From assembly GCA_913048385.1 (NCBI GenBank), contig CAJWVZ010000001.1, positions 1-64,000 on the forward strand: a stretch of 64,000 nucleotides of DNA, in the 5' to 3' direction. The first letter of the stretch is position 1, and the number at the start of each line of letters is the position of its first letter. Positions 46,474 through 55,967 of this stretch are shown here, piece after piece. The notes below the pieces were generated by a model that saw nothing but the letters and a program-made list of their open reading frames with translations, was not told the origin of the DNA and did not search any database. The DNA is from an uncultured Gammaproteobacteria bacterium. GTDB taxonomy: Bacteria > Pseudomonadota > Gammaproteobacteria > Pseudomonadales > Pseudohongiellaceae. Both the position numbers and the translations under genes were made by a program.

Positions 46474-47278
46474 ATGTTGCAAGCGGAAAGTCTTTTGGTG
46501 CAATCTATGAGTTTTCGAAAATTAGCGCTGTTTTTTTCTTGTTTCTTGGTTTTGTCGCAAGCGCTTGGTGCCGAGTCAAAAGTTTACGGTTTTTCGACAA
46601 AAGGATTGGATAGAGTCGAGTACTGGCTTAGAGATTTGGCAACTGAAAAGAAAATTTCTGGCGCCGTTTATGGCGTTATGCAAGGTGGTAAAGTCATACG
46701 TGTCTCGGCGGTCGGAAAGCGTGATATTGAAAGAGACCTGCCAATGGAAGTGGACTCTCTCTTTCAAATTCGCTCCATAAGCAAGCCGATTACGACCGTC
46801 GCTGCACTTCAGCAGATAGAGAAAAATAGATTAAGTTTAGACGATAAGGTGTCTCGCTATATCCCTAGTTTTGATGCCGTAACGGTATTTAAAGATCCAG
46901 ATACACACGACTTTTCTCAAACAAGCCCTGCTAAACCAAGGAGAGCTTGCTGGGAGGAGAATTCTAGAAAGGGAATCGGTTGTAGAGATGACTCGTAATC
47001 AGATCGACCCTCACCTGATGCCATTTGGAATTAATCCTATTTCGCCGATGCTTGATCGGGGTTGGGGCTATGGCATAGGAGTAGTTACCGATGCGAGCGA
47101 GAGCGCGTTTCCTGTCAATGATGGCGAGTTTGCCTGGAGTGGTTCTCTTGGAACTTTTGCTTGGGCTGACCCTTTGGATAAAACCGTTTTCGTTTTAATG
47201 CTGCAGCAATCCCCATCGAATGCCTTTGACGTCAGTAACGAATTTCGTCGGCGTCTTTTTGAAGCTCGGATGAGATAA
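46474..47278 (+). pseudogene. Serine beta-lactamase-like hydrolase gene with internal deletion and frameshift
   Basis: The first part has a signal peptide (from ATG 46507, MSFRKLALFFSCFLVLSQALG) and the SxxK box RSISKPITT, then runs to HDF near 46915. The C-terminal half continues in another frame as FLKQALLNQGELAGRRILE and ends with WSGSLGTFAWADP, the KTG-equivalent region. The whole middle with the YxN catalytic tyrosine is missing, roughly 100-150 residues by comparison with class C-like serine hydrolases. The ORF at 46988 is the tail, not a separate gene. Confidence 0.85.
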
Positions 47279-47953: not shown

Positions 47954-49546
47954 TTAACGAGAGTAACGCAACTCGAACCCTTCTTCAATTTGTCGACTTG
48001 CTAATAGGCTCTGCAACAATGAGTTTAGGTTATCGCTGATATTTAGATTAAGATTAATTTCCTGGCCGCCATTCATGGTTGGACTCTCTCCCCGTAAGGC
48101 AACTGCGATCTTCATTTCACCACTTTTCTGGAGATTCAAGGTGCTATTTAATGTTTCAAAGTTGTAATGTTCAAGAGCTTCACTCACGAGTTTCATACTC
48201 GGATTCACATCATTTTTGTTTTGGGGCGTATAAAAAATCGAACCTCCGGGATAAAGGGCTGAGATATGACCATTGCTTATCTCGATTGTTTCATTCTCGA
48301 GAATGATCGGGAGGTATCCGCTGACACGCCCATTAATTGCCAAGCCATCGTAAGGCATCAGCGCCGCAAGTTCGCCTAAGTCAATACCAGAGAGTATTAG
48401 ATTAAATTGTGACTGGGGCTCGTCCGGTAAAAAAGGGATTTTTGGCATGCTTAATTCACCCTGAAGAAATCGAGTCTTTGTATCGAAAAGATTAAAAAAC
48501 TTCGCGCGACTATTAATGTTTAGGTGAGTCTCGATGTCAGTAAAGACTAATCCGGCATCGACTTTATCGAAGGACAGAGCCTGATCATTCAGCGTGTTTA
48601 ATGAAAACGGATTTTCAACAGCTACGGTCACCATCCCGTTAGCACCAGTAAATATGGTGTCGTTGTAATATCCACTAACGGAATTTAACTTAGTTACCAG
48701 TGGCCCTCCAAAATCCCAAGATCGATCTGTTCGTTGTGTCCACCCTATATCTGTTCGTAAACTTATCTCACCATCCGTTAGGTCAAAAAATGAGTTCCCT
48801 AGGTCAATATAGCTAGAGAGGGGCGCTGAGAGTGAGAGTTCGGGTAAGGCAAGTTGAAGATCTAAGCTTCCAGTGGTCCTCTTCCAGTCGTGCTGGATAG
48901 AGGCACCTAGTATGGTTTGGTCGCCAGTATGTAATTCAAAAATGGCGCTAGCTGTGTCGACGTTGGTTCGTAAAAACCCAGTTATTTGTGGTTCGTTAAG
49001 AATGAATGGCGCGCTTTCAACAACAATATATTCGGATTGGACGTCGCCTTTTACAGTGGGGACTTTTGTTTCATGGTGATTCTCAAAAGAGAAATCTGTA
49101 ATGTTTACCGTGAAGGAGATAGAACCGTTGATTAGGTCAGTTTTAAGGCTATCGACCTTAAGAAGCAGAGATTCCGAACCGAAATTAACAGATGAATTTT
49201 CTTTTAAATTCATAGTAAACGGGCCACTAAGAGAGAGTCCAGTAGCCGAAATCGTTTCGGGTTTACTCGTAAACCCGTTTAGATTCAAATGGTGGGATTT
49301 ATCTTTTAGCTCTATTGATCCCGAAAGGTTGCAGCGGAACAACAAGCTGCATTTGGCGTCAAGACCATCGACCGTAGCATGAATCGAAAGATTCGATGCT
49401 TCTATAATTGCGTTGATTTTTTTTATTTTAATCGAAAGGGGTTCTTGCGTCATTGTTAGGGTTAGGGAGATCTCTTTTGCCGTTAAATCTGTGACTCTGA
49501 GACTCTTTAATGCGGCTGGGGAGCCGTGCAAGTTTGGAGGAAGCAA
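47954..49546 (-). CDS. ydbH: YdbH-like AsmA-family intermembrane transport protein, start uncertain
   Basis: Large beta-groove protein for phospholipid transport across the periplasm, partly redundant with TamB and YhdP in Escherichia coli. The first canonical start is TTG 49546 (530 residues), but the frame stays open to 49801 and encodes a clear membrane anchor (FLTLTFITLATLAFLVAV) followed by ANLELSEISNVKSGFYAGE, which must belong to the protein. No ATG, GTG or TTG lies in frame before it, although AGGAG stands at 49780-49776. It ends with the conserved domain (AALMPYDGLAINGRVSGYLP). At about 600 residues it is shorter than the enteric protein (about 880). Confidence 0.75.
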   Translation of the reverse strand: MLPPNLHGSPAALKSLRVTDLTAKEISLTLTMTQEPLSIKIKKINAIIEASNLSIHATVDGLDAKCSLLFRCNLSGSIELKDKSHHLNLNGFTSKPETISATGLSLSGPFTMNLKENSSVNFGSESLLLKVDSLKTDLINGSISFTVNITDFSFENHHETKVPTVKGDVQSEYIVVESAPFILNEPQITGFLRTNVDTASAIFELHTGDQTILGASIQHDWKRTTGSLDLQLALPELSLSAPLSSYIDLGNSFFDLTDGEISLRTDIGWTQRTDRSWDFGGPLVTKLNSVSGYYNDTIFTGANGMVTVAVENPFSLNTLNDQALSFDKVDAGLVFTDIETHLNINSRAKFFNLFDTKTRFLQGELSMPKIPFLPDEPQSQFNLILSGIDLGELAALMPYDGLAINGRVSGYLPIILENETIEISNGHISALYPGGSIFYTPQNKNDVNPSMKLVSEALEHYNFETLNSTLNLQKSGEMKIAVALRGESPTMNGGQEINLNLNISDNLNSLLQSLLASRQIEEGFELRYSR

Positions 49547-49859: not shown

Positions 49860-51032
49860 TTACTGCCCATTGGACATGATCATAGCGTGCTTCATATCCA
49901 TCATTTCTCTTGAACGATTTCTCTCAGATTGCATGAGCTCTCCTACAGCCGGTCCACCTTGATTATAGATGCCTCCTCGTAAGGCAAAAAGTAAGTATTC
50001 TTCTGGCGCAATCTCAACAGCGTTTTTGTTTGTAAAGGTATTCACCGCGTCTGTGATGAGATCCGATCGATTTTCTAGATTAGGGTAGGAAAGTATGTCA
50101 GCGATCATCGTTTCTAAAACGTTGAGATTGTCGATTATTATGGCCGCCTGAGGGGATTGGCTGTACAGATCAGGTGCGATTGCCGGGGTCATGGGTAATT
50201 CTGTAGGTGCAGGGAACATGCTCATTCCCCCTGCAGAACCAATTTTGTTCCAAAATCGTTCAAGAGCGATCGGAATTCCGTTGTCAAATTGCGAATCTAC
50301 GTGCTCACGAATGATTGCTTCGAGACTAGCAAGCTGAAGCCACTGCTGTGTCCATTGAAAAGCACTCAAACGAGGGAAGGCAGTTTTGAATGCTGTTGCT
50401 TGCGGATGCGTTAAAATGAAGCCGTTATCTTTTGGGGATGACGCTACAGAATGACTGTCATTGCTTAAATAATTATCGATTGCAGTGTTAAGCGCAATAA
50501 GCTTGTCATTGATACTGTCGTCGAGATAGATGGCTAGTACTGTGTTTTCAAACTGACGGCCACGCGAAAGTACCTCAGCAGCTTGAGAGTCCAGTATTGA
50601 ACTGTTCGAAAACGCCTGTGAGGCTGCTTCGTCGGTGTGTTTTCCCCGCATCGTTTCACGTAAACCAATGCGAGCTTCAATTTCCAGATCACCGTATGGC
50701 CCACTCATATTCATGCCCATATGCATACCACCATCATGTCCCATATCAGATGACATCATTTCTTGCATGGTCATATTGGCCATCATCGTGAGATGGTCTT
50801 CAAGTTGATCGCGCGCGGGCTGTGCGTATTGATTTTCATTAATCTTCATAATCTCTTCAAAAGCTTGAGCATGAGTTAGATCAAAAGCGTTAAAAAGATC
50901 TGCAAGTTCGGGATGGGAGATTCTAAGAGAGTTGTTTGATTGGGCTGCGCTGGTACCGGCCAGTAGCCAAAGAATTGCAACAAGCGGTGCGACTATTGAT
51001 CTTTCTTTGGAAAACTGATGCCTCTCAGACAT
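49860..51032 (-). CDS. Exported Met/His-rich protein of unknown function
   Basis: Not recognised. The 390 residues begin with a signal peptide (VAPLVAILWLLAGTSAAQ). The rest looks largely alpha-helical. A striking segment near residues 83-112 is rich in Met and His (MMANMTMQEMM, then DMGHDGGMHMGMNMSG), and the C-terminus again has REMMDMKHAMIM. Such clusters resemble copper- or silver-binding sequences of periplasmic proteins, but no known copper-protein fold is evident. It lies upstream of ydbH on the same strand, 60 bases from the open ydbH frame. Confidence 0.7.
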   Translation of the reverse strand: MSERHQFSKERSIVAPLVAILWLLAGTSAAQSNNSLRISHPELADLFNAFDLTHAQAFEEIMKINENQYAQPARDQLEDHLTMMANMTMQEMMSSDMGHDGGMHMGMNMSGPYGDLEIEARIGLRETMRGKHTDEAASQAFSNSSILDSQAAEVLSRGRQFENTVLAIYLDDSINDKLIALNTAIDNYLSNDSHSVASSPKDNGFILTHPQATAFKTAFPRLSAFQWTQQWLQLASLEAIIREHVDSQFDNGIPIALERFWNKIGSAGGMSMFPAPTELPMTPAIAPDLYSQSPQAAIIIDNLNVLETMIADILSYPNLENRSDLITDAVNTFTNKNAVEIAPEEYLLFALRGGIYNQGGPAVGELMQSERNRSREMMDMKHAMIMSNGQ

Positions 51033-51259: not shown

Positions 51260-51499
51260 ATGAGTGAGAGTATTGAAATTACTTATTGTGCGGAATGAAA
51301 CTATCTACCCGAGGCGGACCGTGTGCTCGCTGAGATAAAAGATAGATTTCCAGGTATTGAAATAATCAAGGTGGCAAGTGGTGGGGGAGTCTTCGATGTC
51401 TGCCACGGCGGTGTCATTGTGTTTAGTAAAGGTGGGGTAAATCGGTTTCCTCACCCCGGAGAGTGTGCGCGACTTATCGCCGCGCGCATTGAGCACTAG
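51260..51499 (+). CDS. SelW-like (Rdx family) selenoprotein with in-frame UGA
   Basis: Absent from the ORF track because TGA is read as stop. From ATG 51260 the frame encodes 79 residues if TGA 51296-51298 is selenocysteine: MSESIEITYCAE-U-NYLPEADRVL. This gives the C-x-x-U redox motif (C10, U13) at the end of the first strand, as in SelW/Rdx thioredoxin-fold proteins, followed by the family features GGGVFDV and VIVFSKGG with NRFPHPGE. The frame then stays open to TAG 51497. A hairpin of bacterial SECIS type lies just after the UGA. It ends seven bases before the convergent DUF5916 stop. The Shine-Dalgarno is weak. The role is probably thiol redox chemistry; selA/selB/selC are not in the window, and a decayed Cys form is the main alternative. 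Confidence 0.85.
51310..51329 (+). promoter_or_regulatory. Candidate bacterial SECIS hairpin
   Basis: Starting 11 bases after the UGA, CGA-G-GCG pairs with UGCUCG (C-G, G-C, A-U, bulged G, G-C, C-G, G-U) leaving a 7-base loop GACCGUG. The apical loop begins 18 bases after the UGA and opens with G, both within the known bacterial SECIS pattern (loop 16-37 bases downstream, G among the first two loop bases). Folded by hand only. Confidence 0.55.
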
Positions 51500-51506
51500 T
51501 TAGATT

Positions 51507-53792
51507 TTATCGTTGGAAAAGGTACGAGAATTTCACAAAGAATTGGTCGCCGTCGTTTCGAAGTTCATTCGCCACTACGAGTTCCCGCTCTCCCTCCATG
51601 TCTACAATATCGAAATTACTTCGATTCGTGTTGTAACCGACATATAAAGCTGACCAAGGGTTAATAACGTATCTAAGAAGCAAGTCGAAGTTTAGGTTCT
51701 CATCATCTACGAGACGCGTTGCAGGTCCCGCATCGGTCTCGTCATATTGAGCAATGAAACGTAAGGACCACTCGCGAGTAAACTGATAGTTCCAATTCGA
51801 ACGAACAATCCTGTTCGTAAAAATTGAGGTCCCGCTGAGCGTCTCCAATTGAGTGTCAAGGTATGTATTCGAGACACGTAACCGGTCAATGGGTCTCCAA
51901 AGGGCGTCAATGCTTACCCTGCGAGTATTAGCTACTCCTGGCATCGTGCCACTGGGGGGCACCACGTTAAGCGCCTTGCCGTCACGAATTGATGCCTGCA
52001 CGTTGAGGCTTTCTAAGACAGTGTTTGAATAGCGAAGCGTGATGTCATCGTAACTATATGATTGATTACTGGCTAAACCATTAAAATCTTGGGGTCGTAA
52101 AATCTCTTCGTAATCGGCGATCGATGCGCTGAACTGACTTGTCGCAAACTTAATTTCGGCACTCGCGCTTACTTGGCTAAAAAGTTTTTGACCCTCCATG
52201 TCTTGGAGGTACACCGGAAAGAATGTTGCTCCCCAACTGTTAATTGCCGATTCATCGGGATAGAAGTTAAAGTTCAGCCTTTGGTGCAACCCTTCTGTGT
52301 CGGCTTTAAAATATCGATTAGCAAAGCCAAGTTCAGTGCGGAAGTCTTTTGTCGTTGCGATGTAGTGGGTATGGTTATTAAACGTGCGACCAGAGCGGTT
52401 CACGGCGATATTTCGCTGATAACCAGTGGTTTTTTCTCCGCTAGCATGATGTTCGCTTTCAGTCGCAACAGTCTGCATCTGTGTGACCCAATTGGCATTT
52501 AGCTTAAATCGGCCGTCAAGACTGCCAACCCTGTTGTATCCGTTCCCAAGTTCTCTATCGGTAACGAGAAACCCTACTCTGTTCTGTGCTGAAAAGTCTC
52601 TGAAGCCCCTGAGTATAGCAATGTTTGCTTTTTCTCCGTCTAACGGGTCATCAGCGTCGCGGTTTAAGCCCGGTGCCTCGTCGTTTATCATAATTGCACC
52701 GAACCCATAGTCACCAGCTTTTCCTGTAAGTCGGATGCCTCCTTCCGGGTCAACGATGCGTCTTGTGAATACAAGATTAGAGTCCGTTGCGAAGAAGTCG
52801 GCGTTCTCGACAAAGAAGGGCCGCCGCTCTGGGAACTGAACTTCGAATCGTTCGTTCAGTGTGACCTGTGGTTGATCTGATTCAACTTGGCTAAAATCAG
52901 GATTTAGGGTTAGATCGAGGACGATCGCATCGTTAAAAATAAATTTCGCGTCAAGCCCAACATCTTGCTCAGACTTTTGATTAAACATTGGGCCGCCTGT
53001 TGCGTCGGGATCTAAGGCGTCAATTTCTCTTGCGAAAATAAATGGAATAATCTGTGTGTTATTTCCAGGCGCGACGCTAGTGATACCTGACATCAGGGCA
53101 GTTTGATTTAGTCTTCCTTCTTTACTGATTGAGTAATGTGGCCAGTTATTCTGCTCATCAAGTCTTGCGATATATCGACCAACTTGCACCCGCCAAAGCT
53201 GGTCCTCTGCTTCTGGAAATCGGAGGCTCCTCAGTGGTATTGACATCTTAACGGCATACCCGTGGTCGGTTACTCGACCTTCACTGTCCCAAACTGCTTC
53301 GAGTGTGGTATCAAACCCGCCCCGGAAGGATGATCCCTCTGTCCAGCGCGCGTCCCACTGAATTCCCACGGGATTGGTCCTAAAGGCGAAAGCCGCTCTT
53401 TGTGCATTAAAGGTGTCAATAATCAGTTCGACCGAGTCGTCTCCTTCAAAGTTCTCTCTTGAGGATATGTTGGCCCGTATAAGCTCAGGTTCATCATCGA
53501 AAGCGAGAAATATTGCGTGAAGCTTGGTGGAGTCGTAACCGAGATATACTTCGGTGCGTTGTGAGGCGGGGTCACCATCGTCTGGAAGCCGCTGTATAAA
53601 AGATTCAATCTTAGTCATAGATTGAGCGAGGCTCGAGATTGGCTTCATGTCTTGAGGCGAAATAAAGTCTGTCAATTCTGGAGTGTCAGATAGCTTTGGT
53701 ATCGAGATTTCTTGACCATGGCTTAACTGGCTTAAAAGAGCACATATAAGCGAGGTGGTCAAAAAAAGGTTTTGAGAGACGGAATAGGACAT
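51507..53792 (-). CDS. DUF5916 protein: exported CBM9-like domain plus C-terminal barrel
   Basis: The 761 residues begin with a signal peptide (LTTSLICALLSQLSHGQ). Residues about 30-230 form a carbohydrate-binding family 9-like domain with TEVYLGYDSTKLHAIFLAFD, REN(F)EGDDSVELIIDTF and AAFAFRTNPVGIQWDA. The signature PDFSQVESDQPQVTLNERFE and FPERRPFFVENADFF leads to a DUF5916 beta-barrel that ends in VKFSYLFQR, as expected for an outer-membrane protein. It is thought to bind or import large organic molecules, but no ligand is established. The barrel has no TonB plug. Confidence 0.85.
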   Translation of the reverse strand: MSYSVSQNLFLTTSLICALLSQLSHGQEISIPKLSDTPELTDFISPQDMKPISSLAQSMTKIESFIQRLPDDGDPASQRTEVYLGYDSTKLHAIFLAFDDEPELIRANISSRENFEGDDSVELIIDTFNAQRAAFAFRTNPVGIQWDARWTEGSSFRGGFDTTLEAVWDSEGRVTDHGYAVKMSIPLRSLRFPEAEDQLWRVQVGRYIARLDEQNNWPHYSISKEGRLNQTALMSGITSVAPGNNTQIIPFIFAREIDALDPDATGGPMFNQKSEQDVGLDAKFIFNDAIVLDLTLNPDFSQVESDQPQVTLNERFEVQFPERRPFFVENADFFATDSNLVFTRRIVDPEGGIRLTGKAGDYGFGAIMINDEAPGLNRDADDPLDGEKANIAILRGFRDFSAQNRVGFLVTDRELGNGYNRVGSLDGRFKLNANWVTQMQTVATESEHHASGEKTTGYQRNIAVNRSGRTFNNHTHYIATTKDFRTELGFANRYFKADTEGLHQRLNFNFYPDESAINSWGATFFPVYLQDMEGQKLFSQVSASAEIKFATSQFSASIADYEEILRPQDFNGLASNQSYSYDDITLRYSNTVLESLNVQASIRDGKALNVVPPSGTMPGVANTRRVSIDALWRPIDRLRVSNTYLDTQLETLSGTSIFTNRIVRSNWNYQFTREWSLRFIAQYDETDAGPATRLVDDENLNFDLLLRYVINPWSALYVGYNTNRSNFDIVDMEGERELVVANELRNDGDQFFVKFSYLFQR

Positions 53793-53963: not shown

Positions 53964-54506
53964 CTAACGAATATTACTACTGTCGATAAAACCCTCACGG
54001 TTAGGCATCTTGATTTGTAACAGGCTACGTCGGTCAACTACTTCGTTGAGACCCACCAGCCCATTCATGTGGAGAACATAAGCAATGACTTGGTAGACCT
54101 CTGTGTTACTCAAGGATTTTGGTGCAGTCGCTGGCATGGCTCTTCTTACGTAATCAAATAAAGTAGTTGCGTGGGGCCAAAAGCTACCCACGGTGCGGAT
54201 GGGCGCATCGTCAGATTGCATATCTCCACCAACCAGCCTGTTTGCAGACCCGTTCCCTTCGCCTCCTGCACCATGGCAGACTTGACATTGAGTTTCATAG
54301 ACCAGTTTTCCTTGAGAGGCAGTGCCATCACCAACTGGCAGTCCTGAGCCGTCGGGGGCAGCGATTAGATCAAAGTTACTCAGTGCTGCAGGCCCAAGGG
54401 CTTTTCCTAGCCGAGGAGTTTGCGCCTTTGAGTAGAGCGCTGTTATCAGCATCACACAGCATATAATCAACTTTGCGATATTTTTACAGCTTTTATGCGT
54501 AAACAT
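53964..54506 (-). CDS. soxD: SoxD-like monohaem cytochrome c
   Basis: Electron-accepting subunit of sulfite/sulfane dehydrogenase SoxCD. The 180 residues have a signal peptide (LIICCVMLITALYSKAQ) and one haem site, CQVCH (C74-H78). The family sequence VGSFWPHATTLFDYVRRAMP and QVIAYVLHMNGLVG is conserved, as is the C-terminal KMPNREGF. It overlaps the soxC end by 14 bases. Other sox genes (XYZ, AB) are not in the window, so a free-standing sulfite dehydrogenase is likelier than a full Sox system. Confidence 0.85.
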   Translation of the reverse strand: MFTHKSCKNIAKLIICCVMLITALYSKAQTPRLGKALGPAALSNFDLIAAPDGSGLPVGDGTASQGKLVYETQCQVCHGAGGEGNGSANRLVGGDMQSDDAPIRTVGSFWPHATTLFDYVRRAMPATAPKSLSNTEVYQVIAYVLHMNGLVGLNEVVDRRSLLQIKMPNREGFIDSSNIR

Positions 54507-55812
54507 TGCTGACCTCTCCGTTTGTGTTGACTGCCCAGCTTTGGATTGCGTTGTAGTGATAAAAGGGACGGTAATTAATTTGATTTTTAGCAGCTATTAA
54601 CGCGTCTCTTGTCGGTTGGACAATTCCATTGCTATCGGTTGCCCTACTCTGCAACACCGCCTCTCCGCCGCTCCAGCTCCAGGGAATTCTAAAGCGGGCG
54701 AGCGCCTTTTCGCCGAGTTGAGAATCTATCTCGGCCACCGCCCACGTTTTCCCGCCGTCCGCACTCACCTCTACCTGGGTAATGCGTCCGCCACCAGACC
54801 AAGCGATTCCATTGAGTTCGTATACGCCCTGTCTGGACAACTTCATCTGTCCCGAAGGCGAGGTAATAATCGACTTTACGTCCATAGGAAAGCTAAATTG
54901 GCGACTCTTCCGATTTTTCAACGTGTCTGTATATTTACTAGTTTCATCTCTAAACTGACTGGGCGCGTTGGTGAGTTTCAGCTGGGTAAGCCATTTAACG
55001 CTGACGTTTCCCTCCCATCCCGGAACAAAGAGTCGCATTGGATAGCCTTGCTCGGGCCGCAAAGGTTCCCCATTCTGAAATAGCGCGAGCATAACATCGT
55101 CGAGGGCTTTATCGAGGGGAAGTGAGCGGCCCATACTAGCAGCGTCTGCTCCGACCGCGCTTAACCAGGTTGCACTTGAATTTATTCCAGCTTCTTCCAG
55201 TAAAGAGCTCAGTTTTATTCCTGTCCACTCTGAGCAAGATACGAGCCCATGAATACTTTGGGCACTGCCGTCCGGCACATCATTGCCAAACAGAGCGCCA
55301 CTGTTACCTGAGCACTCAAGAAAATGTACCCTACTAACCATAGGATATTGCAGAAGGTCTTCGTAATCAAAGCTCAATGGGCGATTGACCAAACCGTTAA
55401 TGACAAGTTTATGCCCGGCGGGATCGATAGCAGGGATACCGGCATGATGTCTTTCAAAATGGAGCCCGCTAGGGGTTATGCTGCCCTGCAGTTGATGAAG
55501 TGGGGAACGAGAGGCGCCTCCTCCTGGATACAAAGGGTTCGGGTTTCCAGACATTCGTTTGGCAGTGGTGAAAGGAGATGGCGATCCGTAGTCACTTGCC
55601 CCAGGGCCTGGCGTCTTCGACCATGCTGGAATCTCAAGTCCAGAGCTTTGTGCTGAGGTACCCGAACTGAGCATGGATGCTGTGCCAGCTAAAGTTGCGC
55701 TTTTCAGACTAAGGCTTAAAAGCTGGCGCCTATTAATGAGGCCGTTAGCGGCTGAAGGTTCCAGTGATTCTGTAAGAACAGAGTCTTGCGCTTGGAGCGG
55801 AAATTTAGTCAT
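54493..55812 (-). CDS. soxC: SoxC-like sulfite dehydrogenase, molybdopterin subunit
   Basis: Periplasmic Mo enzyme. The ORF track starts at 55896, but ATG 55812 (MTKFPLQAQD) has GAGG upstream and gives 439 residues with a twin-arginine-type signal NRRQLLSLSLKSATLAG (from residue 28). The Mo cysteine lies in HFLECSGNSG (C167), and a second domain carries RITQVEVSADGGKTWAVAE. GNPNPLYPGGGASRSPLHQLQG is typical of SoxC and separates it from the enzyme at 41841. soxD follows, overlapping by 14 bases. Confidence 0.87.
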   Translation of the reverse strand: MTKFPLQAQDSVLTESLEPSAANGLINRRQLLSLSLKSATLAGTASMLSSGTSAQSSGLEIPAWSKTPGPGASDYGSPSPFTTAKRMSGNPNPLYPGGGASRSPLHQLQGSITPSGLHFERHHAGIPAIDPAGHKLVINGLVNRPLSFDYEDLLQYPMVSRVHFLECSGNSGALFGNDVPDGSAQSIHGLVSCSEWTGIKLSSLLEEAGINSSATWLSAVGADAASMGRSLPLDKALDDVMLALFQNGEPLRPEQGYPMRLFVPGWEGNVSVKWLTQLKLTNAPSQFRDETSKYTDTLKNRKSRQFSFPMDVKSIITSPSGQMKLSRQGVYELNGIAWSGGGRITQVEVSADGGKTWAVAEIDSQLGEKALARFRIPWSWSGGEAVLQSRATDSNGIVQPTRDALIAAKNQINYRPFYHYNAIQSWAVNTNGEVSNVYA

Positions 55813-55967
55813 ACGCACCTCTTCGTGTTTCTTTTTCGATATGTTACCAATGCCCTTTTTTAGGTACCAATATCGTTTCTTGACTAATGATATCATATCG
55901 GTTTTCCCTCGTGTGAGTTGTAACGAAATGTGGCTGGCAGAAGCATCGATTATTAGTGAGGGAGTGC

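Follow-up and report, generated by a model that had tools for sequence, protein, structure and literature searches.

Family F, a Met/His-rich exported protein family of the Pseudohongiellaceae and a candidate copper-handling partner of cytochrome c-fused PHM-like enzymes

What is the function of an exported protein that concentrates Met and His residues in a few short segments and belongs to no catalogued family? The question is raised by a gene (49860-51032, minus strand) in a window of 64,000 nucleotides from the contig CAJWVZ010000001.1 of an uncultured gammaproteobacterium of the family Pseudohongiellaceae. The open reading frame starts with ATG and encodes a protein of 390 amino acids with an N-terminal Sec-type signal, which can be read directly from the sequence, and with no Cys; orthologues of it could be found, and we refer to them collectively as family F. 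Three Met-containing elements are found in the protein: a Met/His loop (residues 83-109, MMANMTMQEMMSSDMGHDGGMHMGMNM; 50706-50786, minus strand), a GM[ST]MFP motif (residues 269-274; 50211-50228, minus strand) and a C-terminal MxMxHxMxM motif (residues 377-386; 49875-49904, minus strand). The density of the Met/His segment greatly exceeds what chance would give: 30 consecutive residues of the mature protein include 14 Met and His, whereas 20,000 random reorderings of its residues yielded 12 at best. The first-pass annotation of this DNA had described such a segment in a protein of unknown family, and both descriptions hold, as the loop is present and the protein has no match in Pfam or NCBIfam up to an E-value of 1 and no sequence match in the PDB. 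Searches of Pfam, NCBIfam and PDB sequences with a profile of the family likewise returned nothing, 24 relatives of the protein gave no consistent Pfam match, and the open-access literature that we searched holds no account of family F or of the cytochrome c-PHM-like proteins discussed below. Family F is undescribed and is not represented by any database model. An AlphaFold model built from seven of its sequences has a mean pLDDT of 40.7 and is unusable, and therefore no metal site is visible in it. Scans for promoters and terminators gave results at chance level only.

Whole-genome searches identified F in 96 of the 137 genomes of the Pseudohongiellaceae. Outside this family, 392 genomes sampled across the order yielded a single weak match, located within an unrelated and very long reading frame, and neither a phylum-wide sample of 399 genomes nor the contigs of IMG/VR contained F. 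The distant relatives that could be detected outside the Pseudohongiellaceae all come from plasmid records. One is from Gemmatirosa kalamazoonensis (L231:8612-10957; 27.7% identity, E-value of 2e-18; profile E-value of 2e-41) and has a separate Met/His-rich tail of its own; its gene follows a barrel-like gene and is convergent with a gene of the lysyl oxidase family (PF01186). The reading frame of this homologue is apparently shifted near the N-terminus. Two others are from Methylobacterium, one of which aligns with the family profile in hhalign with a probability of 95 and an E-value of 3e-8. These proteins are Met-rich at the C-terminus, with 21 Met in a C-terminal stretch of 95 residues in the protein of Methylobacterium fujisawaense, and a metal-sensing repressor (PF02583) is encoded upstream of the relative in one of the two cases.

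A set of 76 F sequences separates along a fully supported branch into 55 Met-type proteins, including that of the window, and 21 His-type proteins. The Met/His loop is retained in all 55 Met-type proteins with 3 to 12 Met per loop, and is accompanied by a GM[ST]MFP-like motif; almost all of these proteins also end in a C-terminal MxMxHxMxMS motif. In the 21 His-type proteins, the site of the Met loop is occupied by an invariant SHYH....H (SHYH and a third His), and few or no Met residues are present at the positions of the other two motifs. The mean number of Met in the loop is accordingly 8.2 in the Met-type and 0.9 in the His-type proteins, and across the family the Met count of the loop increases with those of the two other motifs (rho of 0.74 and 0.83), while Met residues elsewhere in the protein do not track those of the loop within the Met clade. 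The exact spacing within the loop differs among relatives. His99 of the window protein is one of the few columns that stay nearly invariant once the distant relatives are added, and Cys is absent from 74 of the 76 relatives, as it is from the window protein. The binding of a soft metal in the periplasm, as suggested in the first-pass annotation, gains indirect support from the recurrence of the loop with two more Met motifs, from the His/Met clusters of related proteins outside the Met clade and from the gene pairing with copper-type enzymes described below. Relatives lacking the cluster, by which it might have been recognized as incidental, occur solely in the sister clade, and there the invariant His motif takes its place.

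Outside the subclade of the window, the genomic surroundings of F point to a particular group of enzymes. Its constant neighbours there include two related groups of genes, here termed c0: c0-450, which encodes a cytochrome c joined to a PHM-like half, and c0-560, in which a thioredoxin-like domain is added at the N-terminus. The third of these neighbours is c2, whose product is an exported protein of about 310 amino acids with a weak match to the PKD domain. Of 20 His-type F genes, 17 lie directly 5' of c0-560 and two more directly 5' of c0-450; eight Met-type genes terminate c0-450/c2/F runs, and nine other Met-type genes (A2-type) are located 0.6-6 kb from a c0-450. Both types are found together at locus L104, where genes for a TonB receptor, c0-450, c2, Met-type F, His-type F and c0-560 follow one another on a single strand. 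Homology between F and the PKD-like c2 was considered and rejected, as hhalign matched nothing but their signal peptides.

The assignment of c0 rests on a structure model that was computed for c0-450 from 44 sequences. The model is poor over its first 134 residues, which form the cytochrome part, and good in the C-terminal beta region, whose blocks have mostly 70-94 pLDDT. The best 31 structural matches of this model in the PDB are all PHM or dopamine beta-hydroxylase (E-values of 4e-10 to 1e-7); their TM-scores, at 0.36-0.58, indicate a distant relationship. The model nevertheless places c0-450 in the PHM/dopamine beta-hydroxylase fold. The six best matches to Cu2_monoox_C in the window genome all fall in c0 genes, although one alone reaches the curated cut-off. 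The c0-450 and c0-560 proteins are homologous, and c0-450 retains HH, H and HxH together with a DEM-like motif at positions resembling the copper ligands of PHM, whose pattern we take to be HH, H, HxH and M, the comparison being one of motifs. Animals are the best-known source of PHM and dopamine beta-hydroxylase; the c0 proteins resemble these enzymes in the fold and ligand-like residues of the C-terminal half of c0-450, but differ in the fusion to cytochrome c and, in c0-560, in the additional thioredoxin-like domain. A further difference concerns the CuM-like site, whose HxH pair has been lost from every c0-560 encoded beside a His-type F (L051-L060, L104, L106, L107, L109, L113-L116), whereas 8 of 13 c0-560 paralogues elsewhere retain it (PHMH). 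The c0 genes form a large multigene family, with 19 match segments in the window genome and, among this and 115 further genomes of the Pseudohongiellaceae, up to 67 first-look candidates in a single relative. Relatives of c0-450 are also encoded on 249 IMG/VR contigs (loci L141-L220 among them), which are possibly cellular fragments.

The pairing of F with c0 extends to whole genomes. Among the 137 genomes of the Pseudohongiellaceae, a c0-450 match at an E-value of 1e-100 or better is present in all 96 carriers of F as against 10 of the 41 non-carriers, for which Fisher's test gives a p of about 2e-22, an overstated value as the genomes are related. Within the single genus g23, such a match occurs in seven of seven genomes with F and in none of eight without it. 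The ten non-carriers with a strong c0-450 match count against a partnership. So do the many c0-450-type enzymes encoded on contigs that yielded no F, by which c0-450 is not generally in need of F.

Taken together, the conserved Met/His clusters and the genome-wide pairing with c0 suggest that F supplies or holds copper for the c0 enzymes. Most likely, F is a copper-binding accessory protein, be it a chaperone or a metal reservoir, of the PHM-like cytochromes, a reading to which we give an even chance. On this reading, F would be a soluble, mainly helical periplasmic protein that assists a set of PHM-like enzymes of the type II copper kind, fused to cytochrome c; its loop and the other Met motifs would bind copper, as Cu(I) in the Met-type proteins, and the bound metal would be held or passed on to load the enzymes, the simplest role being that of a metal donor or reservoir. 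Exported periplasmic copper chaperones that use Met and His ligands include PCuAC/PcuC, CusF, CopC and CopK, and F plausibly shares such ligands with them, though it has no match to these families in Pfam, NCBIfam or PDB sequences. A closer precedent in arrangement is CutF of Rhodobacter capsulatus, an exported protein whose gene adjoins that of a periplasmic copper enzyme and which this enzyme requires for its maturation (PMC8456105). In the pair of CutF and CutO, a copper enzyme depends on a small exported partner, as is proposed for F; however, CutF has about 118 amino acids with a CXXXC and a C-terminal PP motif (PMC8456105), unlike the window protein with its 390 residues, no Cys and no matching model. 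In this marine gammaproteobacterial family, cytochrome c-fused PHM-like enzymes are numerous, and F would be their lineage-specific partner. A role in copper supply, if true, would offer a first handle on the loading and regulation of these enzymes, and the switch between Met and His in F paralogues would then be a natural test of copper-site design.

The same motifs could instead belong to a periplasmic copper or silver sequestration protein, which buffers toxic metal and confers resistance with no specific enzyme as its client. The loop resembles in style the Met-rich segment of the multicopper oxidase CutO, and that of CueO binds extra copper (PMC8456105), albeit these segments are part of the oxidases themselves and F is a separate protein. 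The PF02583 repressor near one distant homologue would also fit. We nonetheless regard sequestration as unlikely, since the sampled neighbours include no copper-resistance gene, be it for an efflux pump, CopC or a multicopper oxidase, and the consistent neighbours are the PHM-like cytochromes.

We also hold it improbable that F is a structural or electron-transfer subunit of a PHM-like cytochrome complex, in which the Met/His clusters form an interface or a permanent metal site and not a site of transfer. The tight one-to-one pairing of His-type F with c0-560 is in keeping with a subunit, and in one version HYH....H of the His-type protein stands in, from a separate chain, for the HxH that the adjoining c0-560 has lost, a version in keeping with the distribution of HxH among the paralogues. 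Enzymes of the c0-560 group that lack HxH and have no adjoining His-type F (L046, L048-L050, L140) argue against it; the last belongs to the window genome, from which His-type F is wholly absent. A bolder form of the copper-supply proposal, doubtful as it stands, is that F is a dedicated copper-handling family in which loops of the Met-type and the His-type are interchangeable and which serves an undescribed bacterial cytochrome c-PHM-like system, where the His-type protein may provide the ligands lost by its partner, so that a copper site is shared between two proteins.

The subclade of the window presents a different setting, in which no PHM-like gene adjoins F, a point against the copper-supply proposal; a copper enzyme gene beside F, be it PHM-like or of the lysyl oxidase family, is seen in relatives and not at the window gene. 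Here the order, conserved within this subclade, is a SoxC/sulfite-oxidase-like molybdopterin protein (54493-55896), a c-type cytochrome (53964-54506), a DUF5916 protein (51507-53792) and F, followed in several genomes by ydbH and a DUF1318 gene; the YdbH-like protein of the window is encoded at 47954-49546, and all of these are on the minus strand. The DUF5916 gene is conserved upstream of F in this subclade only. It may be asked whether F of this lineage serves the SoxC-like, cytochrome c and DUF5916 group in a periplasmic sulfur redox chemistry with metal binding as a secondary trait. We find this quite unlikely in spite of the conserved order, as F is equally Met-rich in lineages without this setting, and members with c0-c2-F operons (L102, L103, L104, L112) branch within that half of the tree to which the subclade of the window belongs. 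The copper-supply proposal would accommodate the setting if the F gene has left the enzyme operon and its product acts in trans on the enzymes encoded elsewhere in the window genome, namely four of the c0-450 type (three paired with c2) and the single HxH-less c0-560, none of which adjoins F. That the metal is copper, that it is handed on and that F of this subclade acts in trans are what we infer. That the Met/His segment is incidental low-complexity sequence, as the inexact loop spacing might imply, is very improbable, given that every one of the 55 Met-type proteins keeps the loop alongside two further Met motifs and that the sister clade has an invariant His motif in its place.

The first-pass annotation had correctly placed F beside the DUF5916 gene and, on the plus strand, an Rdx/SelW-type selenoprotein gene with an in-frame TGA (51260-51499), and from the divergent position of the latter had thought a link to metal or redox stress possible. 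A link to the selenoprotein is not supported and was rejected, as its gene adjoins F in no more than three of the neighbourhoods that we examined (window, L031 and L119); this non-conserved neighbour probably stands outside the F system. Elsewhere in the window (46474-47278), a beta-lactamase-like/esterase frame is apparently split into two open reading frames, at the place of which two relatives (L040, L038) have one longer open reading frame.
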